Of a stretch of 16,621 nucleotides of DNA, positions 1,354 to 13,447 are shown in pieces. Below the pieces are notes generated by a model. The model did no database searches. It worked only from the letters and a program-made list of their open reading frames with translations, and had not been told where the DNA came from. The position numbers and the translations under genes are program-made. The stretch's first letter is position 1, and the number at the start of each line of letters is the position of its first letter. Source of the DNA: Candidatus Hodarchaeota archaeon (GTDB lineage Archaea > Asgardarchaeota > Heimdallarchaeia > Hodarchaeales > Hodarchaeaceae); contig JAEOTU010000073.1 of the NCBI GenBank assembly GCA_016839665.1, positions 1 through 16,621 on the forward strand. The letters are read 5' to 3'.

Positions 1354-3207
1354 ATGGTTGGAGATCAGACTACCAAGGATATTGGACTACGGGGGATTGA
1401 AGTAGCCGATACTAATATCTGTCTTATTAAAGGGGAAGAGGGGAGATTATATTACAGAGGTTATGATATAAACGATTTAGCAAGGAGTTCATCATTTGAA
1501 GAGGTTGTCTATCTCCTCATTTATGGGAGTTTACCAACCAATGATGGTCTAAGAGAGTTTTCATCTTCTTTGGTGTCAAACCGAGCGATTCCTCAAGAAA
1601 TTATAGATCATATTCAAAGAGCTCCCAAAACAACTTCCCCAATGTGTGTTCTTCAGTCTACTCTCGCCCTTCTGTCAAATTTTGATCCTGAACTTACTGA
1701 TGAATCTAGAGATGCAAATCGTAGAAAAACAATTCGAATTATAGCAAAATTACCGACTATCGTGGCCGCTTGGGAGAGAACCAGAAATAATCAAGCACCA
1801 GTAGCTCCAAAAAAAGATCTCACTCATGCAGCAAATTTCTTGTATATGCTCAAAGGAAAAGAACCCACGCGTGAATTAGCAAAATGTTTTGATATCGTTC
1901 TTCTTCTTCATGCTGAACATTCTTTTAACGCCTCAACTTTCACAGCAAGAGTCATCGCTTCTACTGGAGCTACGATTTATTCTTCAATTTCAGGGGCGAT
2001 TGGTTCTCTATCGGGTGTATTACATGGAGGAGCAAATCCCTATGTTATGAAAAATCTTATGGAAATAGGTGAGGTGGAGAATGTTGAAAGCTGGGTAAAA
2101 TCCCAATTTGATCAAGGTAAACGAATAATGGGTATGGGTCACGCGATCTATAAAACCATGGATCCAAGAGCTATCATTCTAAAGCAGATGGCAGAGCGAT
2201 TAATTAAAGAAGGATCAGATAGTGCTGAAAAATTCATTAACATTACTAACAAAATGGTAGAAGTCACACAAGAGGAATTCATGAAGCGGAAGGGACGTTT
2301 AATCTACCCAAATGTAGACCTTTATAGTGCATCAGTCTATTCAGCAATAGGGATACCTGTAGAGGCGTTTACACCGATTTTTACAGTCTCAAGAGTAGCG
2401 GGTTGGGCAGCCCATGTTTTAGAGGAGAAATTTCCTGAAACTTCTGAAATTAAACCTGTCATCTATCGTCCGTCTGCTGATTATATCGGAAGGTACTGTG
2501 GTCCTTTAGGATGTGAGTACATTCCAATTGAGAAAAGAAAATCTCAATCGAGTGATGTGGATCTAGCAAAACGATTAATAAACGAGGAAATTCAAAAAGA
2601 CCAAGATTTGTTGATTCCAGTCGCCCTTTCCGCACGCCATATTCATATGAATTCAAAGGATTTTCACAAATTATTCGGAATGAGTCATGAGTTACATCCT
2701 TTACATTCTCTTACTCAACCAAAAGAATTTGCATGTGAAGAAACAGTTGACTTGATTGGCCCAAAAAGAGCTCTATATGGAGTAAGAATAGTAGGACCTT
2801 TGAGAGAACACACACAAGTTGAGATCTCTCGTAGTGATGGCCACGTATTAGGAATAAATCCTCCAGTTCGACAATCAGGGGATATTGGTGGTACTCTCGG
2901 TATTCACATAATGGGACCGAAGGGAGCAATTAAGATAGAAGAGGGAGTAATATGCGTAGGACGCCATATTCATATGAATCCTGAAGACGCAAACAAATTT
3001 GGAGTCTCTGATACACAGCTGGTTGCGGTTAGTTTTCCTGGAACGCGAGCAGGAGTCTTAGATGAGGTTATGGTTAGAGTGGATCCTGATTTTGCCCTTG
3101 AGCTTCATTTGGATCTGGATGAAGGAAACGCTTTATTCTTAAAAGATGGTGATATGGGTCACCTGCTATCAGATTTTGATCACAAAACTTTCTCACCATT
3201 TCGGTGA
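1354..3207 (+). CDS. Citrate synthase–PduL (phosphotransacylase) fusion protein
   Basis: Two complete enzymes share one 617-residue polypeptide. Residues 10-395 form a citrate synthase: RLYYRGYDINDLA near 33, AEHSFNAST around His189, catalytic His224 in LHGGAN, catalytic His263 in MGMGHAIY, and catalytic Asp322 in NVDLYSAS. A late RPS triplet (372-374) stands where many homologues have RPR. A roughly 20-residue helical linker (400-418) leads to a PduL-type phosphate acyltransferase (419-605). That domain has both zinc-binding HxH motifs (ARHIHM, 429/431; GRHIHM, 538/540), the Glu pair in FACEETVDL, and the active-site Arg506 in NPPVRQSGD. PduL converts acyl-CoA and phosphate to acyl-phosphate and CoA; citrate synthase condenses acetyl-CoA with oxaloacetate and also frees CoA. 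Methylcitrate synthase activity is possible. The ATG at 1354 is preferred over an in-frame TTG at 1348. It is the first gene of the operon, and its stop lies just before the BMC-H start. Confidence 0.93.
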   Translation: MVGDQTTKDIGLRGIEVADTNICLIKGEEGRLYYRGYDINDLARSSSFEEVVYLLIYGSLPTNDGLREFSSSLVSNRAIPQEIIDHIQRAPKTTSPMCVLQSTLALLSNFDPELTDESRDANRRKTIRIIAKLPTIVAAWERTRNNQAPVAPKKDLTHAANFLYMLKGKEPTRELAKCFDIVLLLHAEHSFNASTFTARVIASTGATIYSSISGAIGSLSGVLHGGANPYVMKNLMEIGEVENVESWVKSQFDQGKRIMGMGHAIYKTMDPRAIILKQMAERLIKEGSDSAEKFINITNKMVEVTQEEFMKRKGRLIYPNVDLYSASVYSAIGIPVEAFTPIFTVSRVAGWAAHVLEEKFPETSEIKPVIYRPSADYIGRYCGPLGCEYIPIEKRKSQSSDVDLAKRLINEEIQKDQDLLIPVALSARHIHMNSKDFHKLFGMSHELHPLHSLTQPKEFACEETVDLIGPKRALYGVRIVGPLREHTQVEISRSDGHVLGINPPVRQSGDIGGTLGIHIMGPKGAIKIEEGVICVGRHIHMNPEDANKFGVSDTQLVAVSFPGTRAGVLDEVMVRVDPDFALELHLDLDEGNALFLKDGDMGHLLSDFDHKTFSPFR

Positions 3208-3212
3208 AATGT

Positions 3213-3524
3213 ATGGCTGCTCTTGGTTTTATTGAAGCTTATGGAAGAGTTTGTGCAATTGAAGCAGCAGATGTTGCATTAAAAGCTGCTGATGTCAATC
3301 TGATTTTCATAAAAAAAATCTCGGGTGGTTTGGTAACTGTGGTAATAGAGGGAGAATTGGCTGCAGTACATTCTGCTATTGAGGCGGCAAAAATTAGAGC
3401 TAGAATGCTATGTCGAATTGTTAACACAAATATTATTCCTGGACCTGCTGATGAAACGTTAGCAACAATTGACGAAATAAGAAGAATCCGAAAAAAAGGT
3501 TCTAGAAATAGGAAGAACAAGTAA
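3213..3524 (+). CDS. BMC-H hexameric shell protein (first copy, basic C-terminal tail)
   Basis: This single-domain Pfam00936 shell protein (103 residues) should form hexagonal tiles of the BMC shell. It starts MAALGFIEAYGR, like the family's typical M-x-x-ALGxIExxG, followed by AIEAADVALKAADVNL with the conserved lysine at the hexamer interface. The pore loop is ISGG (residues 36-39) rather than the common GGG, and VTVVIEGELAAVHSAIEAA follows. The last 15 or so residues (RIRRIRKKGSRNRKNK region) are strongly basic, beyond the core fold. The ATG at 3213 is chosen because GGTGA lies at 3203-3207 with a 5-nt spacer. An in-frame GTG at 3204 would overlap the upstream stop and add MKC. It sits between the citrate synthase–PduL fusion and the flavoprotein-like gene. 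Confidence 0.93.
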   Translation: MAALGFIEAYGRVCAIEAADVALKAADVNLIFIKKISGGLVTVVIEGELAAVHSAIEAAKIRARMLCRIVNTNIIPGPADETLATIDEIRRIRKKGSRNRKNK

Positions 3525-3543: not shown

Positions 3544-4272
3544 ATGGATAAAAAACAATTGTCAGATCTTATTACTCGAGAAGTTGATAAAACAATAGAG
3601 GCTGATTTCTCCAAAATTGATTCCACCTCTTTTAAAGTCCTAGGAATAATGACACATATGGGTAAGGGTCTTGAACAGCTGTGTAACCACCTCATTCAGC
3701 TATCCCGAGAAGGACTTCCAGTTCTAGTTTGGACGCATGAACTAATCGATAATATCATTCAAATAAAATCACAAAGTAATTCTATTCCTACAATGAAAGT
3801 GGAACTAAGGAATGATGGAAACTTTTGTTTTCCAAACTTTAGGGGATTAAAATATATCATTTTTGGTGCATTTAGTTTCGAAATAGCAGATAAAATTATC
3901 CAATTGCAGGATGAAGATCCAATTGTAAATATATTGATGCAAGGTCTCCTGCTAAATCTTCCTGTATATATTTTAACTCCTATTCCACTGACAGATTTAA
4001 TATTTGAATATAGACCAACCAGTAGAATAAACCAAGAGTTACGAAAGAGACTATCCCTTCTTACCGAGATGGGTTTTGGTCTACTTGACGAAAAAGATCT
4101 GGAAGATAGATTCACAAAACAAATCCCTAGTACCCCTGATCTTATAACAGAATCATATATTGAAGAACTAAGAGGGAAAGTCAGAGAATTAAGGTTGCCA
4201 CGAAAAGCTATTGTCACTCCCCTAGCTCAAGAAAAAGCAGGAGAATTAAAAATTCGAATTGTCAGAATATAA
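3544..4272 (+). CDS. Flavoprotein-like BMC-associated protein with N-terminal encapsulation-peptide-like helix
   Basis: The function of this 242-residue protein is not firmly known. The centre (about residues 30-180) aligns by eye with the flavoprotein domain at the N-terminus of the DeoC fusion in this operon. YIIFGAFSFEIADKI corresponds to [15 protein letters not shown], the following GLLLNLPVYILTP to [13 protein letters not shown], and LLTEMGFGLLDEKDL to [15 protein letters not shown]. The fold is therefore probably Rossmann-like (Pfam Flavoprotein type), but the Asn and Thr of the usual SLNTAAK motif are replaced (SFEIADK), so flavin binding is doubtful. Residues 1-18 (MDKKQLSDLITREVDKTI) are an amphipathic helix of encapsulation-peptide type. 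The C-terminus has a short KAIVTPLAQEKA motif that resembles ends of other BMC accessory proteins. It is flanked by two shell genes, so a lumen or shell-associated role is likely. Confidence 0.6.
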   Translation: MDKKQLSDLITREVDKTIEADFSKIDSTSFKVLGIMTHMGKGLEQLCNHLIQLSREGLPVLVWTHELIDNIIQIKSQSNSIPTMKVELRNDGNFCFPNFRGLKYIIFGAFSFEIADKIIQLQDEDPIVNILMQGLLLNLPVYILTPIPLTDLIFEYRPTSRINQELRKRLSLLTEMGFGLLDEKDLEDRFTKQIPSTPDLITESYIEELRGKVRELRLPRKAIVTPLAQEKAGELKIRIVRI

Positions 4273-4284
4273 GGAGAGTAAATC

Positions 4285-4575
4285 ATGAAAGTGTGTAAAG
4301 TTATTGGAAATGTGGTTAGTACAAAAAAAGATGAGAACATTCTAGGCTTCAAACTATTAATCGTTCAACCTGTTGATATGTATGAATTTAAACCTGAAGG
4401 AAATCCATTTGTTGCTGTTGATGCTGTTGGATCTGGCGAAGGAGAGATTGTACTAGTCGTTTCAGGGAGTTCTTCCCGATTAACTGAAATGACGAAAGAT
4501 CGGCCTACAGACGCAACAATTCAAGCAATAATCGATTTTATCAAAATAGATGGAAAACAAACGTATGCAAAATGA
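4285..4575 (+). CDS. BMC-P pentameric vertex protein (EutN/CcmL family), copy 1
   Basis: This 96-residue EutN/CcmL-family protein should form the pentamers that cap the shell vertices. The start MKVCKVIGNVVSTKK matches the family (M-x-x-x-x-V-x-G-x-V-x-x-T-x-K). It is followed by GFKLLIVQPVDM, FVAVDAVGSGEGEIVLVVSGSSSR (the conserved D-x-x-G-x-G-x-x-x-x-V segment), and the C-terminal strand ATIQAIIDFIKID. Length is typical and there are no extensions. A clear Shine–Dalgarno GGAGAG lies just upstream of the ATG, 12 bp after the flavoprotein-like gene. It is the simplest of the three BMC-P paralogues here. Confidence 0.93.
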   Translation: MKVCKVIGNVVSTKKDENILGFKLLIVQPVDMYEFKPEGNPFVAVDAVGSGEGEIVLVVSGSSSRLTEMTKDRPTDATIQAIIDFIKIDGKQTYAK

Positions 4576-4608: not shown

Positions 4609-6036
4609 ATGACATATAATGAAGAACAGATAGCTAAGATTGTAAATAGGGTAGTTACAAAAATTCGTGCATATCAAGTCTATCCAGGGTTAGAAAACAT
4701 TCCAATGTCAGCTGGAGGAGGTGTGTTTCAAGGAATAGAGGAAGCTATCGATGCAGCTGAAGCTGCTTATTATTCCTTAATGGATCTATCCCTTGAAAAA
4801 AGAAAAGATCTCATTTATTCCATGAGGGAAATGGCAACTAGACACACCCGATATCTAGCAGAGCTAGCTGTTCAAGAGACAGGCTTAGGGCGCTTAGAAG
4901 ATAAAGTAGCAAAGAACCTTTTGTGTGCAAGAAAGACCCCAGGTATTGAAGATTTAATATCCACAACTTGGACGGGGGATAGAGGACTTTCACTGGTTGA
5001 AATGGCTCCTTATGGTGTAATAGGTGCAATAACACCTAGTACCAATCCAACAGCTACAATTATTAATAATGGAATATCAATGGTTGCGGCTGGTAACAGT
5101 GTTGTTTTCAACCCTCATCCTGCGGCGAAAAGAGCATCTAATGAAACTGTTAAATTAATGAATCGTGCAATCATTGAAGCAGGTGGCCCTGAAAATGTAC
5201 TGACTTCAACAATCTCACCATCAATTAAATCTGCTCAAATAATTATGGAACACCCCAAAATACGTTGTCTTGTAGTTACAGGTGGAGGTGCAGTTGTAAA
5301 AGCAGCAATGACATCAGGTAAGAAAACAATTGGTGCAGGTCCAGGTAATCCGCCAGTAATTGTTGATGATACGGCTAATATCAGAAAAGCTGCCCGTGGA
5401 ATAGTCGAAGGGGCAAGTTTTGACAATAATATTGTCTGTCTTGTAGAGAAAGAAGTCTTCGCTTTTGAAAATATTACTGACCGATTGAAAGAAGAGATGA
5501 AGAGATACGGAGCATATGAGGTCGAAGGAAGGCAACTAGATCAGCTGGTCAATCTTGTTTTCAAAGAACCAAATGCTAATCCTCCAAAATTAAATAGAGA
5601 ATATATTGGAAAGGATGCCCGTCTAATTTTAGAACAAATCGGAATAAGGGTTAGTGATGACATTAGATTAATCATTGCTGAAGTACCTGACGATGACCAT
5701 GCATTCGTTGTTACGGAGATGCTTATGCCCATCCTTCCTATAGTACGAGTAAAAACTATTGAAGAGGCTCTTTATAAGGCGAAAAGAGCTGAACATGGAT
5801 TCAAGCATACAGCCATGATGTGGAGTGATAGTTTAGGGAACCTAAGCCTTGTTGCTAGAAATATTGAGACAACCATTTTCGTAAAAAATGCACCATCACT
5901 CGCTGGGGTTGGATTTGGAGGCGAAGGTTTCGCTACTATGACAATAGCAGGCCCTACTGGTGAAGGTCTTACTTCTGCACGTACTTTCACCCGCCAACGA
6001 CGGTGTGTACTAGTCGACGCGTTTAGAATCGTTTAA
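4609..6036 (+). CDS. CoA-acylating aldehyde dehydrogenase (PduP/EutE type)
   Basis: The enzyme oxidises an aldehyde with NAD+ and CoA to acyl-CoA; given DeoC in the operon, acetaldehyde to acetyl-CoA is the likely reaction. Residues 3-20 (YNEEQIAKIVNRVVTKI) are an amphipathic helix typical of the encapsulation peptide of PduP, joined by a short linker to the dehydrogenase body. Visible motifs are PYGVIGAITPSTNPT (134-148), the nucleotide-binding VTGGGAVV, GAGPGNPPV (242-250), and the catalytic cysteine Cys277 in SFDNNIVC. The 475-residue length is normal for PduP/EutE. GAGG at 4598-4601 is a good ribosome-binding site, 7 nt before the ATG. Product acetyl-CoA would feed PduL or citrate synthase in the fusion protein, and NADH would feed the PduS-like protein encoded next. 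Confidence 0.94.
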   Translation: MTYNEEQIAKIVNRVVTKIRAYQVYPGLENIPMSAGGGVFQGIEEAIDAAEAAYYSLMDLSLEKRKDLIYSMREMATRHTRYLAELAVQETGLGRLEDKVAKNLLCARKTPGIEDLISTTWTGDRGLSLVEMAPYGVIGAITPSTNPTATIINNGISMVAAGNSVVFNPHPAAKRASNETVKLMNRAIIEAGGPENVLTSTISPSIKSAQIIMEHPKIRCLVVTGGGAVVKAAMTSGKKTIGAGPGNPPVIVDDTANIRKAARGIVEGASFDNNIVCLVEKEVFAFENITDRLKEEMKRYGAYEVEGRQLDQLVNLVFKEPNANPPKLNREYIGKDARLILEQIGIRVSDDIRLIIAEVPDDDHAFVVTEMLMPILPIVRVKTIEEALYKAKRAEHGFKHTAMMWSDSLGNLSLVARNIETTIFVKNAPSLAGVGFGGEGFATMTIAGPTGEGLTSARTFTRQRRCVLVDAFRIV

Positions 6037-6062: not shown

Positions 6063-7394
6063 TTGACCGTTGATCTTGCTGAGATTGTGAGGAACGCTGG
6101 CGTTATTGGAGCTGGTGGAGCAGGATTTCCGACCCACGTTAAACTTTCTGCAAAAGTTGAAACATACATCGCTAATGGTGCAGAATGTGAACCTCTAGTA
6201 CACGTAGATCAGCATTTAATGGCATTATATCCAGAAAAAGTTGTTAAGGGATTACAGCTAGGAATGGAAGCAACGGGGGCAACACGGGGGATTATAGCAC
6301 TAAAAAGAAAATATACCACATCTATAAACGCGCTTAGAAAGGCAATTAAAAGCGATAAACGGTTAGAAATATTTCTTCTTGATGATTATTACCCAACAGG
6401 GGATGAATTTGTACTTGTTTATGAGACACTTCATAAATTTGTTCCAGAAGGAGGGATTCCGCTCGATATTGGGGTTGTGGTAAATAATGTTGGAACTCTG
6501 ATAAATCTCGTTAATGCATTCGAGGGAAGACCCGTAATTTCACGACATGTGACTGTATCTGGAGCTGTGAAAAAACCTCAAACCATAGAGTTCCCCATTG
6601 GTACATCAGTTAAAACTGCTATTCTAGCAGCTGGAGGATCTACGGAAAATCCCTATAAAGTCATATTGGGTGGACCAATGATGGGTGAGGTAGTTAAAGA
6701 CCTTGAAGAATCCATCACAAAGACTACATCTAGCCTCATCGTCCTACCTGAAGATCATTATTTGATTAATATGAAGCAACAAAGAATGTCATCAAAGGTT
6801 GTTGTTTCAAAAGCGGCGTGTATAAGGTGTCAGCTATGTACAGAGGTTTGTCCTCGTTTCCTACTCGGACATGATCTATACCCTGACAAAATAATGAGGG
6901 CTATTGCATTTGGTGGAATGGAAAATAGTGATCATTTAACCAGTGCTTTCCTATGTGTATTTTGTGGTGCGTGTACTTTCTATGGTTGTCCTATGGGTCT
7001 CGACCCATGTAAAATAAATTATGAACTTCGTAATCACTTCATTATTGAGGGATTAAAGAACCCTCACAAGCGAAGAAAGCTAAAAGTCCATCAAGAAAGA
7101 GAATTACGGAAACTACCCATGAAAAGACTCGTTTCTCGATTGGATTTAACAGAGTATGAACATCCTGCTCCAATTAGTTCACACTCTCTTAATATAGAAC
7201 ATGTTAAAATCCCTTTAAATCAACATATTGGTGCTCCTGCAATCCCAATTGTGGTAATAGGAGATCAAGTATCAAAGGGTGATCTTATTGGAAAAATTCC
7301 TGACGGATCACTTGGAGCAACAGTTCACGCGAGTATTAGCGGGACTATTAAAAAAATACATAAAGAAATCGTTATAGAAACTAAAAAAAATTAA
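6063..7394 (+). CDS. pduS: PduS/RnfC-like NADH-oxidising Fe-S flavoprotein
   Basis: The 443-residue protein belongs to the PduS/RnfC family of electron-transfer proteins. GAGGAGFPTHVK (16-27) is the conserved nucleotide/FMN-binding start. GTLINLVNAFEGRPVISRHVTVSG (144-167 region) is typical of RnfC. Two [4Fe-4S] ferredoxin motifs follow: Cys253/256/259 with Cys263, and Cys298/301/304 with Cys309, the latter running into CPMGLDP. The C-terminal part has a barrel-sandwich hybrid segment (HIGAPAIP, GDQVSKGDLIG, HASISGTI) as in PduS. Translation starts at TTG (6063), with GGAAG a few bases upstream. In Pdu compartments PduS works with the Fe-S shell protein PduT; the operon encodes a BMC-T with the matching cysteine two genes downstream. 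It probably passes electrons from lumen NADH outward; the final acceptor is not encoded here. Confidence 0.9.
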   Translation: MTVDLAEIVRNAGVIGAGGAGFPTHVKLSAKVETYIANGAECEPLVHVDQHLMALYPEKVVKGLQLGMEATGATRGIIALKRKYTTSINALRKAIKSDKRLEIFLLDDYYPTGDEFVLVYETLHKFVPEGGIPLDIGVVVNNVGTLINLVNAFEGRPVISRHVTVSGAVKKPQTIEFPIGTSVKTAILAAGGSTENPYKVILGGPMMGEVVKDLEESITKTTSSLIVLPEDHYLINMKQQRMSSKVVVSKAACIRCQLCTEVCPRFLLGHDLYPDKIMRAIAFGGMENSDHLTSAFLCVFCGACTFYGCPMGLDPCKINYELRNHFIIEGLKNPHKRRKLKVHQERELRKLPMKRLVSRLDLTEYEHPAPISSHSLNIEHVKIPLNQHIGAPAIPIVVIGDQVSKGDLIGKIPDGSLGATVHASISGTIKKIHKEIVIETKKN

Positions 7395-7419: not shown

Positions 7420-7698
7420 ATGGCTAAAGAAGCATTAGGTCTTATAGAAACCAGAGGTCTCGTTGCATCCATTGAAGCAGCTGATGCAATGGTGAAAGCA
7501 GCAAATGTAAACTTGCTTGGAAAAGAAGTCATTGGTGGCGGTTACGTTACTGTAATGGTACGTGGTGATGTGGGTGCAGTAAAAGCTTCTGTAGAAGCTG
7601 GAGCTGTAGCTGCTCGTAAAGTCGGAGAATTAACATCCGCTCACGTGATTCCTCGCCCCCACGATGAAGTTGAATCTATCCTGCCGAAAAAGGCTTGA
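7420..7698 (+). CDS. BMC-H hexameric shell protein (second copy)
   Basis: This canonical 92-residue Pfam00936 shell protein is probably the major facet tile. It begins [22 protein letters not shown], contains [13 protein letters not shown] with the conserved interface lysine, the glycine-rich pore loop IGGGY (38-42), and [16 protein letters not shown]. The C-terminus [17 protein letters not shown] is the standard family ending. GGTGA at 7409-7413 is a good ribosome-binding site, 6 nt from the ATG. Compared with the first BMC-H it has the usual GGG pore and lacks the basic tail. Confidence 0.96.
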
Positions 7699-7805: not shown

Positions 7806-8351
7806 ATGCATGCAATCGGAATTGTTGAAACCAATGTTGTAGCAAGAGGACTCCTTGCTGCAGATGCGATAGTTAAAGCAGCTGACGTTAAACTACTATC
7901 ATCAACACCTGTTTGTCCAGGTAAATACTTAATCATTGTGCAAGGATCAGTTGCATCTGTGAAAAGTTCCTTAGATGCTGGAAGTACCATAGCAGGGGAA
8001 GCATTAATCGGTTCAGTAGTCATTCCCAATGTTCATGACGAGGTTTTTCCAGCTATATCTGGAACAACTAAAGTTGATCAAATTGATGCGATTGGGTTGA
8101 TTGAAACATATTCGGCTCCCTCTGCCATAATGGCTGCTGATGAGGCGGTAAAAAGTGCAAATATCCGTTTGATTGAAGTGCGATTAAGTCGTGCTTTAGG
8201 AGGGAAAGCATTTGCTCTGTTTACTGGTGAAGTTGGTGCTGTTCGAGCAGCGATCGCGGCAGGTGTGAATAGGGTTAAGGAGCAAGGATTGGTTCTGTCT
8301 ACAGCCTTAATACCAGCTCCACATAAGGATTTGATAAAATATCTCTTGTAA
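7806..8351 (+). CDS. BMC-T tandem-domain shell protein, PduT-like Fe-S type
   Basis: The 181-residue protein has two Pfam00936 domains in tandem: 1-90 from HAIGIVETN, and 94-181 from DAIGLIETYS. It should form pseudohexameric trimers. The first-domain pore loop reads STPVCPGKY, with Cys37 in a CPGK motif. In PduT the equivalent cysteine from each subunit holds a [4Fe-4S] cluster in the trimer pore, so an electron-conducting pore is likely here. The second domain has GGKAFALFTGEVGAVRAAI. The ATG at 7806 gives the expected M-x-A-I-G start. Together with the PduS-like protein it suggests electron transfer across the shell. It follows a 107-bp gap with a hairpin. Confidence 0.93.
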   Translation: MHAIGIVETNVVARGLLAADAIVKAADVKLLSSTPVCPGKYLIIVQGSVASVKSSLDAGSTIAGEALIGSVVIPNVHDEVFPAISGTTKVDQIDAIGLIETYSAPSAIMAADEAVKSANIRLIEVRLSRALGGKAFALFTGEVGAVRAAIAAGVNRVKEQGLVLSTALIPAPHKDLIKYLL

Positions 8352-8380: not shown

Positions 8381-8839
8381 ATGAAAAAAATTGTTATTGG
8401 AAGTGATCATGGAGGATTTGATCTCAAGAAGCAGATAATACAATTCCTTAAAGGACTCGGTTATGAAGTAGCTGATTTTGGATGTTATTCTACCGAACCA
8501 GTTGACTATCCAGATATTGCTTTGCTGGTTGCTCAAAATGTTTCTGTGTCTCTAGAAACTAAAGGAATCTTAATTGATGGAACAGGGGTAGCAAGTGCGA
8601 TTGTTGCCAATAAGGTCTCCAATGTTCGAGCCACACCCTGTACAGATGAATTTACTGCTCACTCAGCAAGAGAACACAACGATGCTAACATTTTGACACT
8701 TGGAGCAAGAATTTTGGGTGTTGGTCTCGCGCAAAACATCGTGAAAAGATGGCTTGAAACTCCATTTGGTGGTGGACGTCACGAACGCCGAGTCAACAAG
8801 ATTCGTGATATTGAGCAAAGATTTTGTAAGTCGACGTGA
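8381..8839 (+). CDS. rpiB: RpiB/LacAB-family sugar-phosphate isomerase
   Basis: Ribose-5-phosphate isomerase B interconverts ribose-5-P and ribulose-5-P; the family also includes allose- and galactose-phosphate isomerases. The 152-residue protein has IGSDHGGFDLK (6-16), EPVDYPDIA, REHNDAN (97-103), and the phosphate-binding GGRHERRVNKI (131-141). At the usual catalytic cysteine of the [IV]CGTG motif it has Asp66 (LIDGTGVASAIVANK), a change also familiar from BMC-linked relatives with IDGAG. The proton-transfer base may therefore differ. RpiB is a hallmark of sugar-phosphate-utilising BMC loci together with DeoC. No encapsulation helix is visible; it could act outside the shell. Its stop overlaps the GTG of the next BMC-P gene. 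Confidence 0.88.
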   Translation: MKKIVIGSDHGGFDLKKQIIQFLKGLGYEVADFGCYSTEPVDYPDIALLVAQNVSVSLETKGILIDGTGVASAIVANKVSNVRATPCTDEFTAHSAREHNDANILTLGARILGVGLAQNIVKRWLETPFGGGRHERRVNKIRDIEQRFCKST

Positions 8840-9282
8840 TTTATTTGAAACTTGGGAAAGTCATTGGTAATGTAGTAGCGTCGGTGAAAGATCCAGGACT
8901 TGTAGGTTTGCGCTTACTTGTTGTTCAAGGATTAAATGATGATTTTGAACCCGTTGGAAAACCGTATGTTGCTGCAGATGGGATTTATACCGCAGGTCCA
9001 GGAGATATAGTCTATCTTGTAAGTAAAAAAGAAGCAGCTCTAGCAATTTCAAAAGGATTAGTACCAATAGATGAATGCATTGTTGGTTTCGTCGAAGAAT
9101 ATAATGTTATAAAACCGAGAAAGAAAAAAAGGCCAGAAAAAACTCCAACACCTCCGAAAGCTCCTCCCAAAACGAAAACTACTCCTAAGCGGCCACCTAC
9201 AACAAGAACTCGTCCAAAACAAGCTACAACAAGAACTCGTCCAAAACAAGCTGCAACAAAAAAAAGTCAGAGGAAGGCATGA
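8836..9282 (+). CDS. BMC-P vertex protein with long Lys/Pro/Thr-rich C-terminal tail, copy 2
   Basis: Residues 1-92 are a EutN/CcmL pentamer subunit: LKLGKVIGNVVASVKDPG, GLRLLVVQGL, YVAADGIYTAGPGDIVYLV, and the final strand CIVGFVEEYN. Residues 93-148 form an extra low-complexity tail with about 22 Lys/Arg, 12 Pro and only one acidic residue, resembling a histone H1 tail. Part of it is a direct duplication of TTRTRPKQA. Such a tail should be disordered and could bind nucleic acid, other anions or cargo; no function is known to me. The GTG start at 8836 overlaps the rpiB stop. A TTG at 8845 (giving MKLGKVIGNV) is an equally plausible start by homology. The next BMC-P begins 4 bp after the stop. 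Confidence 0.88.
   Translation: MIYLKLGKVIGNVVASVKDPGLVGLRLLVVQGLNDDFEPVGKPYVAADGIYTAGPGDIVYLVSKKEAALAISKGLVPIDECIVGFVEEYNVIKPRKKKRPEKTPTPPKAPPKTKTTPKRPPTTRTRPKQATTRTRPKQAATKKSQRKA
9197..9250 (+). repeat. 27-bp tandem repeat, two perfect copies, inside the BMC-P tail
   Basis: Positions 9197-9223 and 9224-9250 are identical 27-mers starting CTACAACAAGAACTCGTCC. A third, partial and slightly diverged copy begins at 9251 (CTGCAACAA). The unit is nine codons, so copy-number change keeps the reading frame and lengthens the basic tail by nine residues each time. It probably arose by slippage or unequal recombination. Confidence 0.95.
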
Positions 9283-9286
9283 TCCA

Positions 9287-9595
9287 ATGTATTTGGCTCT
9301 CGTTACTGGCAATTTAGTGGCAACTATTAAAACTAAAAGCCATGAAAATTATAAAATACTCGTCATAAGGCCTATAGACATGCATGGACGATTTATTGGA
9401 GAATCAACAATTGCTTTGGACACTGCTCAGGCAGGGGTGGGTGATTGCGTGCTAATTTTGCAGGAAGGGAACTCAATTCGTAGTATCATGAAGGATGAAG
9501 ATGGAGCAGTAGATGCTTTAATCGTGGGTGTTGTAGATTTCATTGAAGTCGAAGGAAAACAACGTGATTTAACACTAAATCTTGAGAGTGTTTGA
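9287..9595 (+). CDS. BMC-P vertex protein (EutN/CcmL family), copy 3
   Basis: This 102-residue EutN/CcmL-type vertex subunit starts [18 protein letters not shown], followed by [36 protein letters not shown], and the C-terminal [17 protein letters not shown]. The first copy is the closest in pattern (same R/Q-P-[IV]-D-M and F-I-x-[VI]-[ED]-G-K-Q). It begins 4 bp after copy 2, so the two are probably translated together. Three vertex paralogues in one operon could form distinct or mixed pentamers. Confidence 0.92.
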
Positions 9596-9597
9596 TA

Positions 9598-11025
9598 ATG
9601 GATGAAGATATTGTTCAAAAAATTACCGAGCAAGTTTTACGAAAATTGGGTCAATCAGAGACAACCTCTAATGAGAATCCAATTAAAACTAAAGAAACTG
9701 GATACAAACGAACAAATCCTCTTATTTCCACTGGTTCGGCAATTATTCTACTTTGTGGAGGTGATGAGAAACTACCTGAAGTTTATCAGCAGATGGAGGA
9801 AATTTCACGTCGTTTTTCACCCGTTCATGTCGTTATGACAAAATCAGCTACACAAATCATAGGAATTCCAAAGGCGAGGAGTGCATCACAAGGTGGTAAA
9901 ATAATCACTGAATATTCTTCAGATTATTTGGAGAAGGTACTCAAACAAGCTGATGCGATTTATGTTCCAGTTATATCCCTAAATACAGCTGCAAAAGTGA
10001 CCGCTCTGAATGCAGATTCTCTTGGTACAATCACTATAGTTTTTGGACTGATGTATGGAAAACCTGTCATTGTAGCAAAAAATTCGATTTTTTGTTGTCA
10101 AATAAAGCCTGAAAATGTTCCAGAACCAATGTTAAAGAGAATTAACGGAATTATTAAACTACTTGAAGATATGGGTGTTCAAATAGTCGATATCCATGAT
10201 TTAACTGGTGCGGCTCCTATACAAGAGATTAAATCTCCATCTACAGTCTATACTACAGGTACAGCTGGTAAACTTAATGGTGACGAAATTGTGAAAGCTT
10301 TCGTTAATGGAGGAGCTTCACGAATTGGAACAAACCCTGGAATAGCTGAATTTGATAAAGACTTAGCTAAATATATTGATCATACTCTTTTAAAGGCTGA
10401 TGCTACAGAAGAAGAGATACGAAAGCTTTGCGATGAAGCCAAGGATTATGGATTTGCTTCTGTATGTGTTAATCCGACAAATGTGTCAAAAGCGAAAGAA
10501 AATTTGCGTGGGAGCTCTGTCAAGGTCTGTACAGTTGTTGGTTTTCCCTTAGGGGCTACTACACCTACTGTTAAAGCTATAGAAACTCGTGATGCTATAG
10601 CAAATGGTGCAGAAGAGATTGATATGGTTATTAATGTAGGAGCATTGAAGTCAGGCGATGATGAGCTTGTCAAGAGGGATATTGAAGCAGTTGTTGCCGC
10701 AGCTAAAGGAAAAGCCTTGGTAAAAGTCATTCTAGAGACCGCGTTATTAACAAAGGAACAAATTACAAAAGGAAGCCTTTTAACTAAACTAGCTGGGGCT
10801 GATTTCGTTAAAACTTCCACAGGCTTTAGTACTGCTGGTGCTACAGCTGAAGATATTGAATTAATGCGGAAGACTGTAGGGCCAGAAATGGGAGTAAAAG
10901 CTGCAGGTGGTATTAGAACTCTTGAAACAGCTGAAAAAATGATAAAGGCTGGAGCAACTCGTATTGGTGCTTCAGCATCAATTGCCATTGTTAAAGGGAC
11001 CACAAGCTCATCCGAAAAATATTAG
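9598..11025 (+). CDS. deoC: Flavoprotein–deoxyribose-phosphate aldolase (DeoC) fusion
   Basis: DeoC cleaves 2-deoxy-D-ribose-5-phosphate to glyceraldehyde-3-phosphate and acetaldehyde through a lysine Schiff base. From the ATG at 9598 the protein is 475 residues. Residues 1-18 ([18 protein letters not shown]) are an encapsulation-peptide-like helix, then a polar linker to about 40. A flavoprotein-like domain follows (about 45-210, with [18 protein letters not shown]). A joining segment has [11 protein letters not shown], and the TIM-barrel DeoC runs from about 254 ([16 protein letters not shown]). Class I aldolase residues are present: Asp342 in [10 protein letters not shown], Schiff-base Lys405 in DFVKTSTGF, Lys434 in [10 protein letters not shown], and Cys290 in SVCVNP. 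DeoC alone is about 220-260 residues, so the N-terminal half is extra. A TTG at 9592 is in frame but overlaps the previous stop. As the signature enzyme it points to a sugar-phosphate BMC. Confidence 0.93.
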
Positions 11026-11036
11026 GGGTCATCGTA

Positions 11037-12254
11037 ATGATCATTTTGACCCTGAACTGCGGGTCATCATCAGTAAAATATGCGCTATTCAACACTACTT
11101 TTAAGAAAATGCTTGCAAAGGGGATCGTTGAGCGGGTGGGGTTTTCAGGTTCATTTGTTCATCAGAAAGTTGGATCACAGGAAATTACACGAAAATTTAG
11201 ATGTGAAAATCATCAAGTAGCTATTCAATACATACTAAAGTTACTGGTTTCCCCATCAGAAGGTGTTATGGAGAATATATCAGAAGTTGATGCCGTTGGT
11301 CATAGAGTAGTTCATGGAGGGGAAGAATTTGTTGAATCTACACTCATTAACTCTATTGTTGAAAAAGTAATCGCAGACCTTTCATCACTGGCACCATTAC
11401 ATAATCCTCCAAATCTTCAAGGTATACAAGCAGCGAAAAAAGTTCTACCTAATATTCCTCACATTGCAGTCTTTGATACTGCTTTTCATCAATCAATGCC
11501 AGAATATGTCTACCGTTATGCAATCCCATCGAAATGGTATTCAGAGAATAAAATCAGAAGATATGGCTTTCATGGAACTTCTCATTATTATGTTTCTCAA
11601 CGTGCGATGAGATTATTGGGTAAATCAGAGAAAAAATCCAAGATTGTCACATTACATCTAGGTAATGGAGCCTCAGTAGCAGCGATTAAAGATGGAAAAT
11701 CGGTTGATACGAGCATGGGTCTGACACCCCTTGAAGGATTAGTCATGGGAACCCGTTCAGGGGATATAGATCCTGGAGTTGTCCTTTCCATGATGCGAAC
11801 AGCAAATCTTTCCTTTGGAGAGGCTGATGACATACTTAATCGTCAAAGTGGACTTCTTGGGATTGCACACAGTTCCGACATGAGAGATATCGAGGAAAAA
11901 GCTATCCAGGGGGATGAGAAAGCTCTTTTGGCATTAAATTTAGCAGCTTATCGGGTTCGCAAATATATTGGAGCGTATTTTATTGCTTTGGGGGGATTGG
12001 ATGCAATAGTTTTTACTGCAGGAATCGGAGAAAGATCTTCTTATTTTAGATCACTCGTTCTCAAGGATCTTGAATTTTTCGGGATAGAAATGGATCAAGA
12101 AGCAAACTTAGAAGCGGTAAGTGGAACTCAAGAGCGAATAATCTCTTCAAATGCGTCTAAGATAAAGATTTTCGTCATACCAACCAATGAAGAGCTTGTA
12201 ATGGCTCAAGATACAGAACGAATTGTAAATCAGATCAACAAAGTGCCACGCTGA
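11037..12254 (+). CDS. ackA: Acetate kinase
   Basis: The enzyme transfers phosphate from acetyl-phosphate to ADP, giving ATP and acetate. The 405-residue length is normal. Motifs in order are LNCGSSSVKYALF at the N-terminus, GHRVVHGGEEF, FDTAFHQSMPEYVYRYAIP, RYGFHGTSHYYVS, HLGNGASVAAI, DTSMGLTPLEGLVMGTRSGDIDPG, FTAGIGERS, and PTNEELVMAQDT. No encapsulation helix is present, so it probably acts in the cytosol on acetyl-phosphate leaving the shell, or without a shell. It starts 11 bp after deoC and is the last gene of the operon. The 62 bp to the convergent gene contain T-rich stretches but no strong hairpin terminator. Propionate or butyrate kinase activity is possible, but acetate fits DeoC-derived acetaldehyde. 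Acetate kinase is uncommon in Archaea. Confidence 0.96.
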   Translation: MIILTLNCGSSSVKYALFNTTFKKMLAKGIVERVGFSGSFVHQKVGSQEITRKFRCENHQVAIQYILKLLVSPSEGVMENISEVDAVGHRVVHGGEEFVESTLINSIVEKVIADLSSLAPLHNPPNLQGIQAAKKVLPNIPHIAVFDTAFHQSMPEYVYRYAIPSKWYSENKIRRYGFHGTSHYYVSQRAMRLLGKSEKKSKIVTLHLGNGASVAAIKDGKSVDTSMGLTPLEGLVMGTRSGDIDPGVVLSMMRTANLSFGEADDILNRQSGLLGIAHSSDMRDIEEKAIQGDEKALLALNLAAYRVRKYIGAYFIALGGLDAIVFTAGIGERSSYFRSLVLKDLEFFGIEMDQEANLEAVSGTQERIISSNASKIKIFVIPTNEELVMAQDTERIVNQINKVPR

Positions 12255-12316: not shown

Positions 12317-13447
12317 TCATGGTTTATAATCAGAGGGCAGGCCAACCTGCCTGATTAGAATATCGCTCAATTTGTCAGAACGTGGCCTGGACTCAATAAG
12401 GAAGTCTTCCAAATTAGACTCAACTTGTTTTAAAACATCACGCTCATCTGGATCAATATTTTTCTGTGTTATATGATACTCAAAGAATTTGCATAAAATT
12501 CTTGGCGCTCGAGTCATGGAAGTGAGTTCCTCATCAGTTACACTCCGTATTCGATGTACGGTTTGAGTAACTCTTGGATCAAATATATTGCTTTTCGTAT
12601 GGATAACTGCAGTTAAGTAACTACGTCCCTGCGTAATTTCGTCCTCTTCCATCCAAATGTCGGAACCTAGGGCCCACATCTCATAATCTATCCCCCAAAT
12701 TTTGTTGGGCTTCTTTTCTTCATCGAATTGAACTAAATAATTACCTGCATTTCTGTCTGGATCATTCAACCATATATCAAATGGTAGAAGGGAATATCCG
12801 TCATCTATTTGTTGTATAGTTTCAAAAGCTCCATCAAGATCTTTGGTATCTAAGAATTCATCAAGATTTATAGTATTAGGAATTTTTTCCATGATCAAGG
12901 CAAGTATTGTTGACGGGTCACCTCTTTCGCTCTTCTTCGTAAGCAATTGTTCGAATTTTTCAGAGGTTTCAAGTGTGTAAGATTCCCGCTCTGAAAGTTC
13001 ATAGAATTCTTCGGCAGTGTCTCCCTCATCTTCTTCATCTTCATCGAGGATAACGACATCACCAAGGTCTAATATTGTCGTTTGCTCAAGGGGCTGATCT
13101 GCAATTTGTTGGGAGCAAACAACCAGAGCATTTGGGACATTAAGCCTTAATCGTTGTCCAAGACGTGAAGCGGTTAGCTCGTTAAGAACACGCCACAAGT
13201 GCATCCTATGTCTGCTTTCTTCAGGAGAATCTTCAATATCAACCTCTAGATCTAAAATCTTGTTCATTTCAAAGTCGATAAACTTTGAAAAAGATTTTAA
13301 TAACCATTCCTTGTTTTGTTCATCTATTAACACAATTGCTTTTCCATGTTGACCAGCAGCGGTCATGGCTTTCTTAGTAATTCGAAAACGATTAAGAACT
13401 TCCTTCTTTTCATGAGTTTCATATATAACTAAATCCCATTTTGCCAT
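12317..13447 (-). CDS. HipA/PI-kinase-like fold protein, function unknown
   Basis: The 376-residue protein shows remnants or a divergent form of the HipA/phosphatidylinositol-kinase-like fold. A strand ends in WLLKSF (possible ATP-binding Lys51). The catalytic-loop-like motif WLNDPDRNAGNYLV (226-239) is followed by a metal-binding-like WGIDYEMW (251-258). This order (N-x-x-D-R-x-x-x-N, then I-D) is what HipA-like kinases show. A very acidic stretch lies at 134-143 (LDEDEEDEGD). There is no HipB-like partner gene next to it, so a toxin–antitoxin role is not supported. It is convergent with acetate kinase and has its own start ATG at 13447, with GAAGGAAG just upstream on the minus strand. It may be transcribed after or independently of metG, which ends 119 bp upstream. 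The substrate is unknown. Confidence 0.6.
   Translation of the reverse strand: MAKWDLVIYETHEKKEVLNRFRITKKAMTAAGQHGKAIVLIDEQNKEWLLKSFSKFIDFEMNKILDLEVDIEDSPEESRHRMHLWRVLNELTASRLGQRLRLNVPNALVVCSQQIADQPLEQTTILDLGDVVILDEDEEDEGDTAEEFYELSERESYTLETSEKFEQLLTKKSERGDPSTILALIMEKIPNTINLDEFLDTKDLDGAFETIQQIDDGYSLLPFDIWLNDPDRNAGNYLVQFDEEKKPNKIWGIDYEMWALGSDIWMEEDEITQGRSYLTAVIHTKSNIFDPRVTQTVHRIRSVTDEELTSMTRAPRILCKFFEYHITQKNIDPDERDVLKQVESNLEDFLIESRPRSDKLSDILIRQVGLPSDYKP

Follow-up and report, generated by a model that had tools for sequence, protein, structure and literature searches.

Gene content of the locus

The window, by which we mean the whole analysed stretch of 16,621 nucleotides, contains a BMC operon on its forward strand. 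A single stop-free frame (1354-3207, + strand) encodes a protein of 617 amino acids that consists of a citrate synthase (CS), a helical junction, and a PduL phosphotransacylase. The stop of this frame and the start of the first BMC-H gene share positions 3204-3207. The features are:

1354..2472, + strand: citrate synthase (CS) domain of the fusion (residues 1-373)
2539..2616, + strand: junction of the fusion (about residues 396-421; predicted helix 399-419)
2617..3207, + strand: PduL phosphotransacylase domain including the stop codon (PF06130 at residues 422-596, E 9.2e-68; 5cuo, E 2.1e-48)
3204..3524, + strand: BMC-H shell protein (PF00936, E 3.7e-21)
3544..4272, + strand: flavoprotein-like BMC protein of 242 aa (TIGR02536 weak, E 2e-6, far under the cut-off)
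4285..4575, + strand: BMC-P (EutN/CcmL) vertex protein 1 (PF03319, E 1.6e-29)
4609..6036, + strand: CoA-acylating aldehyde dehydrogenase, AldDH (NF011927, 653 bits against a cut-off of 403)
6063..7394, + strand: PduS/RnfC-like flavin/Fe-S protein (PF01512, RnfC_N, Fer4, SLBB; rnfC 275 bits against a cut-off of 246)
7420..7698, + strand: BMC-H shell protein 2 (PF00936, E 2.1e-29)
7806..8351, + strand: BMC-T, PduT-like, with a CPGK cysteine (PF00936 in two stretches, E 2.1e-44; TIGR02526, E 1.8e-38, under the cut-off)
8381..8839, + strand: RpiB-type ribose-5-phosphate isomerase (PF02502, E 6e-53)
8836..9282, + strand: BMC-P 2 with a long basic tail (PF03319, E 8.8e-19)
9287..9595, + strand: BMC-P 3 (PF03319, E 3.8e-20)
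9592..11025, + strand: deoxyribose-phosphate aldolase, DeoC (TIGR00126, 293.5 bits against a cut-off of 117.3, residues 258-467; PF01791)
11037..12254, + strand: acetate kinase, AckA (PF00871, E 3.7e-149; TIGR00016, 505 bits against a cut-off of 293)

The shell set comprises two BMC-H, one BMC-T, and three EutN/CcmL proteins, corresponding to the hexamer, trimer, and pentamer types. Together with the AldDH, PduS-like, DeoC, and acetate kinase genes downstream of the fusion, it bears out the BMC setting that a first-pass annotation of this DNA had assumed. The DNNIVC motif of AldDH and the CPGK motif of BMC-T are found in the window and in all 7 relatives read. AldDH and DeoC each carry an N-terminal, encapsulation-peptide-like helix (amphipathicity p 0.005 and 0.007, respectively), and the PduS/RnfC-like protein is likely the exit for NADH electrons. 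The 242-aa protein, for which no Pfam match was found, ends in an ITPLARD-type tail in the window and in the relatives, as do the tagged CS described below.

We note further features of individual genes. DeoC has about 230 extra N-terminal residues past its tag helix, with a weak flavoprotein match (PF02441, E 0.028). The tail of BMC-P 2 (8836-9282) is long, basic, and rich in Pro, Lys, Arg, and Thr; in 7 of 7 relatives read it is likewise long and rich in Lys, Arg, and Pro, with a varied sequence and some acidic stretches, and could bind nucleic acid or other cargo. Two flanking genes without a Pfam match, 242-1204 and 12317-13447 (- strand), are conserved in the 7 uncut relatives, and orf320 has a CxxCxxxCC cysteine cluster.

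By its gene content the operon is a sugar-phosphate (SPU-type) BMC operon, since the window contains both a PF01791 aldolase (9592-11025, DeoC) and a PF02502 isomerase (8381-8839, RpiB), families that are described as common to all SPU subtypes (Sutter 2021, PMC8217296).

Domains and active sites of the fusion protein

The claim of the first-pass annotation that CS and PduL are fused holds: one intact frame carries both PF00285 (residues 11-373, E 2.6e-129) and PF06130 (227.9 bits against a cut-off of 25). The catalytic His, His, and Asp of CS, which the annotation had also read, are present together with the citrate-binding Arg residues, and all are invariant in 31 of 31 aligned fusions; their roles are those described for pig and Thermus CS. 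In a fold search with the fusion all listed rows match the CS half. This half resembles the type II/archaeal CS (1ixe, 1aj8, 6abx) in fold and catalytic residues and differs from them by its C-terminal PduL (or, in relatives, BMC-type tails) and its membership in a BMC operon.

The PduL half retains both sets of zinc ligands, mapped in the window and invariant in 31 of 31 fusions, as well as the phosphate-contacting Arg103, which corresponds to R484; the claim of two zinc sites and an active Arg is thus confirmed for the window, with the addition that the Arg position holds Arg in 24 and Lys in 7 of the 31 fusions. The ligand positions were taken from Erbilgin 2016 (PMC4784909), where the phosphate Arg is stated for all PduL homologues. 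Both zinc sites and the phosphate Arg are shared with the PduL structures 5cuo/5cup, whereas here PduL is joined to a CS, the peptide region forms the junction, and Lys replaces Arg in 7 of 31 proteins. A pairwise comparison with the closest relative (94% identity) yields a dN/dS of 0.098 for CS, 0.095 for PduL, and 0.28 for the linker. The structures 5cuo/5cup are those of R. palustris PduL.

An artefact of sequencing or assembly was rejected: 7 genomes of the phylum and the 31 aligned fusions, two overlapping sets, all have the open frame. There is no break near 2540-2610, where a frameshift or stop had been allowed for, and the frame is open there in the genomes of relatives too.

Fused, split, and tagged citrate synthases

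Homologous fusions, whose absence elsewhere would have told against the first reading, occur in the 7 genomes of the phylum; among the best 120 of 7955 matches listed, 34 proteins carry both domains, and those with an organism label belong to Hodarchaeales, Hodarchaeota, or Heimdallarchaeota. The same best 120 of 7955 matches contain ten unfused CS (P0035-P0041, P0074, P0080, P0084) of 496-534 aa with a C-terminal tail that ends in an ITPLARDRA-like motif (P0037 is cut within the motif). Three of the ten were examined for an N-terminal helix (P0035, P0038, P0041), and in all three it is strongly amphipathic (0 of 1000 shuffles reach it, p<0.001). A search with the tagged-CS tail found 2 proteins. 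P0035 and the free PduL P0124 each lie on a contig of 60,956 bases with the same organism label, and P0038 and the PduL P0138 each on a contig of 131,120 bases, which suggests that each pair shares one contig.

A CS tree of 64 rows unites the 23 fused forms, the single split form, and 9 tagged forms in one clade (33 rows) with a support of 100/96; the closest neighbours of this clade are CS that lack such tails. This tree replaced a first one (94 rows), in which three long-branch, untagged Asgard CS, including the second copy of genome G002, fell inside the BMC-type clade by joins that the program flagged as unsafe. Between the two trees ten divergent Asgard CS, eight fusions, eight other CS, and four genome-contig rows were removed, so that the support of 100/96 refers to a tree free of the divergent Asgard CS rows; P0037 is in neither tree. 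From these sequences CS looks like a class of BMC cargo, of which the fusion is one form. The first-pass annotation had recognised neither this class nor the SPU type of the operon nor its Asgard host.

One tagged CS of the Asgard BMC-type clade, P0080, stems from a MAG named Myxococcales and lies on a 3.5-kb contig (L003, 543-2066). The same MAG has a separate DeoC/AldDH/PduS BMC locus with two PduS-like genes on another contig (L155). Mis-binning of the small CS contig is possible; the phylum search for L003 covered 5 genomes only.

The split form is found in genome G050, where CS ends in a stop and PduL starts after a gap of 47 bases, or of 80 if counted to its second ATG. Each enzyme can therefore stand alone, since both are separate neighbouring genes here. 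The PduL tree, comprising 23 of the 31 full fusions, 4 partial ones, 13 high-scoring free PduLs, and 20 of 101 lower-scoring PduLs, contains a clade of 39 in which every named member is Asgard; free PduLs branch first and the fused ones are nested (32-row fork, 96/86). The free PduL of G050 groups beside the clade of the window (100/97), and the free PduL P0139 falls on the bacterial side. The minimum number of changes between fused and free forms is 4 (P0133, P0135, and P0136 were left out of this count, the free P0137 and P0138 out of the tree), and a topology that places all fused rows in one clade is rejected (p-AU 2.4e-61). The sequences fit a single fusion followed by several fissions, with the separate start checked on the DNA for G050 only.

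The junction as a candidate encapsulation peptide

In the structure model the junction forms a helix (residues 399-419; pLDDT block means 60-74). The model is the second one, built from 75 sequences; the first, from the 31 fusions, was discarded (pLDDT 63.2). An HMM built from the 31 junctions matches 9 of the 10 tagged-CS tails with a score that none of 200 shuffles reaches (the exception is P0074). Among the 13 free PduLs it was applied to the 9 with a whole-looking N-terminus: in 8 it beats all 200 shuffles, and in the ninth it is equalled by 2 of 200. One of 4 other PduL N-termini matches as well, at 2 of 200 shuffles. The HMM has no match to the N-termini of the ten tagged CS, to those of AldDH, DeoC, and the 242-aa protein of the window, or to the tail of the split CS of G050. 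Amphipathicity failed as proof of an encapsulation peptide at this position, p<0.05 being reached in 1 of 31 linkers. BMC forms of PduL are described as carrying an N-terminal encapsulation peptide (Erbilgin 2016, PMC4784909), and we predict that the junction is probably such a peptide, now internalised.

Distribution among Asgard genomes

The closest relative of the fusion belongs to a Hodarchaeota MAG, and the next whole-genome match (63% identity) to a Heimdallarchaeota chromosome record. BMC shell domains are found in 8 of 227 genomes of the Asgard phylum. The same 8 genomes carry a BMC-type CS and PduL, in 7 cases fused in one frame and in one (G050) as neighbouring genes, and in 8 of 8 PduL occurs as one copy per genome, located in the BMC locus. 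Gene order is kept in the seven uncut loci, with orf320 and orf376 on either side; six of the seven are flanked by MetRS, and six contain AckA, the one without it being G002. In the remaining genome, G051 (1.4 Mb), the operon is cut off after the start of the 242-aa gene. Absences in G051 mean little, because its operon is cut and the genome comprises only 1.4 Mb.

Bacterial contamination was rejected because two of the loci sit on large contigs named Heimdallarchaeota, of 4.94 Mb (G002) and 3.16 Mb, and because the closest PDB chain of the window MetRS is 1rqg, followed by a cytoplasmic MetRS; 1rqg is from Pyrococcus, and 5gl7 is human.

Acetate kinase and citrate metabolism in the BMC genomes

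By the Pfam model exactly one acetate kinase, located in the BMC operon, is found in 6 of the 8 BMC genomes. In G002, which consists of one contig of 4.94 Mb, the model finds no acetate kinase, and none lies in the operon (L144, 5594-5636). The fusion of G002 (P0023) has Lys at the position of the PduL phosphate Arg and all CS residues intact; the shell genes, the Lys motif of DeoC, and the Cys motif of AldDH are retained. Citrate may hence be the main exit from the shell in G002, and judged by its genes this genome is the strongest natural case for a CS exit that is important on its own. Since 7 of 31 PduLs have Lys in place of Arg and AckA was not found in G002, not every lineage would need both exits.

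In G001, G046, G047, G048, and G051 (completeness figures are not given for these genomes) no full-length CS besides the fusion was found; the remaining CS-domain matches there are short or resemble ATP-citrate lyase. A housekeeping role does not apply to the fusion in all genomes, since a second full-length CS is encoded in G002 and in G044, and fragments of one in G050. In 7 of 8 BMC genomes aconitase matches almost the full length of its model, and the isocitrate/isopropylmalate dehydrogenase family is likewise present in 7 of 8. Citrate made in the shell could thus be used for glutamate, or be cleaved again in the cytosol.

The citrate-binding domain of ATP-citrate lyase occurs in 6 of 8 BMC genomes, compared to 53 of the 219 genomes that lack a BMC in this phylum. 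The latter include G045, G049, and G052, which are listed adjacent to BMC carriers, and ATP-citrate lyase was therefore rejected as a BMC-specific partner. In G002, G050, and G001 its subunit genes adjoin each other and an isocitrate-dehydrogenase-like gene; such neighbourhoods in three BMC-bearing Asgard genomes are L158 (4262-8679), L159 (6749-11165), and L160 (3552-7963).

Proposed function and alternative explanations

We regard it as fairly probable, judging from gene content and conserved active sites, that the fusion works in the lumen of an Asgard BMC of the SPU type that degrades DNA/deoxyribose, and acts there as a CoA recycler with two exits. DeoC would convert deoxyribose-5-phosphate into glyceraldehyde-3-phosphate and acetaldehyde, the latter would be converted with CoA into acetyl-CoA by the acylating AldDH, and PduS together with the PduT-like BMC-T would carry the electrons out of the shell. 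With acetyl-CoA trapped in the shell, the fused enzyme would free CoA in two ways. In the first, PduL would form acetyl-phosphate, from which AckA then yields acetate and ATP; in the second, CS would join acetyl-CoA with oxaloacetate imported through the pores, and the resulting citrate would leave the shell by the same route for aconitase, isocitrate dehydrogenase, and biosynthesis. The protein would be targeted by the internalised encapsulation peptide inherited from PduL, and the fusion would hold both exits in one place at a fixed 1:1 ratio. Two possible CoA-recycling exits had been put forward in the first-pass annotation; both active sites and the BMC context argue for them.

A quite unlikely alternative is that the fusion works in the cytosol, outside the shell, and has no more than its operon in common with the BMC proteins. 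Most known encapsulation peptides sit at a terminus, and the junction helix is internal and weakly amphipathic; the lack of HMM matches to the N-termini of AldDH, DeoC, and the 242-aa protein in the window would also be in line with a cytosolic location. Against it, the junction resembles the N-termini of free Asgard PduLs and the tails of BMC-type CS, PduL occurs solely in the BMC locus in each of the 8 genomes, and three unfused relatives of the CS carry strong N-terminal tags. We consider a mainly structural role of the CS half very unlikely. In solved relatives both CS and PduL form dimers, and a chain that joins two obligate dimers could form a network, cross-link the core, and aid condensation before shell assembly; aggregation of proteins caused by encapsulation peptides has been described (Erbilgin 2016, PMC4784909). 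Against such a role speak the invariance of the catalytic and citrate-binding residues of CS in 31 of 31 fusions, its low pairwise dN/dS (0.098), and the separate genes in G050.

The substrate of the CS half might also be propionyl-CoA, with 2-methylcitrate as the product and propanal as the real aldehyde of the BMC. The family models do not separate acetyl-CoA from propionyl-CoA: TIGR01800 (cit_synth_II) covers both CS and 2-methylcitrate synthase activity, bifunctional models score the CS half with 353 and 324 bits, and methylcitrate synthases are among its structural matches. A higher score, 396 bits, is reached by NF010639, the model for citrate synthase, though it stays below the cut-off of 502, and the aldolase of the operon is a DeoC above the equivalog cut-off, which yields acetaldehyde; we consider the propionyl-CoA reading very improbable. 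A very low probability falls to a reverse use, raised in the first-pass annotation, in which citrate enters the BMC and is cleaved by CS to oxaloacetate and acetyl-CoA, with PduL and AckA pulling the reaction and yielding ATP. The chemistry of CS is reversible, and PduL and AckA are encoded in the same operon. However, the equilibrium of CS lies some 31-36 kJ/mol towards citrate, against only a few kJ/mol from the PduL and AckA steps. Moreover, the citrate-binding subunit of ATP-citrate lyase is available for cleavage in 6 of 8 BMC genomes, acetyl-CoA in the shell is already supplied by DeoC and the acylating AldDH, and G002 keeps the fusion with acetate kinase not found there, so that the proposal fared poorly.

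An extension of the two-exit recycler, which we rate as unlikely, is an organelle-style export of citrate. It is known that in mitochondria acetyl-CoA is made where CoA does not leave, with CS inside, and that exported citrate is used by a cytosolic ATP-citrate lyase. Correspondingly, a shell with its own CoA pool would release the acetyl unit from deoxyribose in the form of citrate, from which ATP-citrate lyase in the cytosol would regenerate acetyl-CoA; in the lineage with an altered PduL and no AckA found, citrate would be the sole known way out. Both systems would have a CoA-retaining compartment with CS inside, and ATP-citrate lyase occurs in 6 of 8 BMC genomes. In contrast to mitochondria, the compartment here would be a protein shell without a known transporter, and ATP-citrate lyase is also found in 53 of 219 genomes without BMC.

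Relation to known BMC loci and significance

The locus resembles the SPU BMC loci (Sutter 2021, PMC8217296) in its DeoC-type aldolase, RpiB, and shell proteins of the usual types, and it shares AldDH, PduL, PduS, and an acetate-kinase-like protein with an SPU-like Latescibacteria locus (Axen 2014). It differs by its archaeal host and by having PduL, the usual enzyme for CoA recycling in such shells, fused to CS. SPU loci are reported from 26 bacterial phyla in Sutter 2021 (PMC8217296), the main text of which contains neither "archaea" nor "citrate"; "citrate synthase" is absent from the text of Axen 2014. In the article titles and abstract openings that were listed we found no report of an archaeal BMC or of a BMC citrate synthase; most subscription papers, preprints, and the supplements of the 2021 catalogue lie outside this scope, and prior notice is possible.

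BMCs have been described as bacterial organelles. The operon described here is complete, keeps its gene order, and comes from archaea regarded as close to eukaryotes; in two genomes it lies on a contig longer than 3 Mb. With CS, an enzyme of central carbon metabolism, the list of candidate cargo proteins grows by one that exists in a fused, a split, and a tagged form. If true, the proposed function would alter the standard model, according to which the acyl-CoA leaves a metabolosome as acyl-phosphate or alcohol: the compartment could release carbon as citrate besides acetyl-phosphate, and whether a BMC feeds biosynthesis through the export of a TCA intermediate becomes directly testable.
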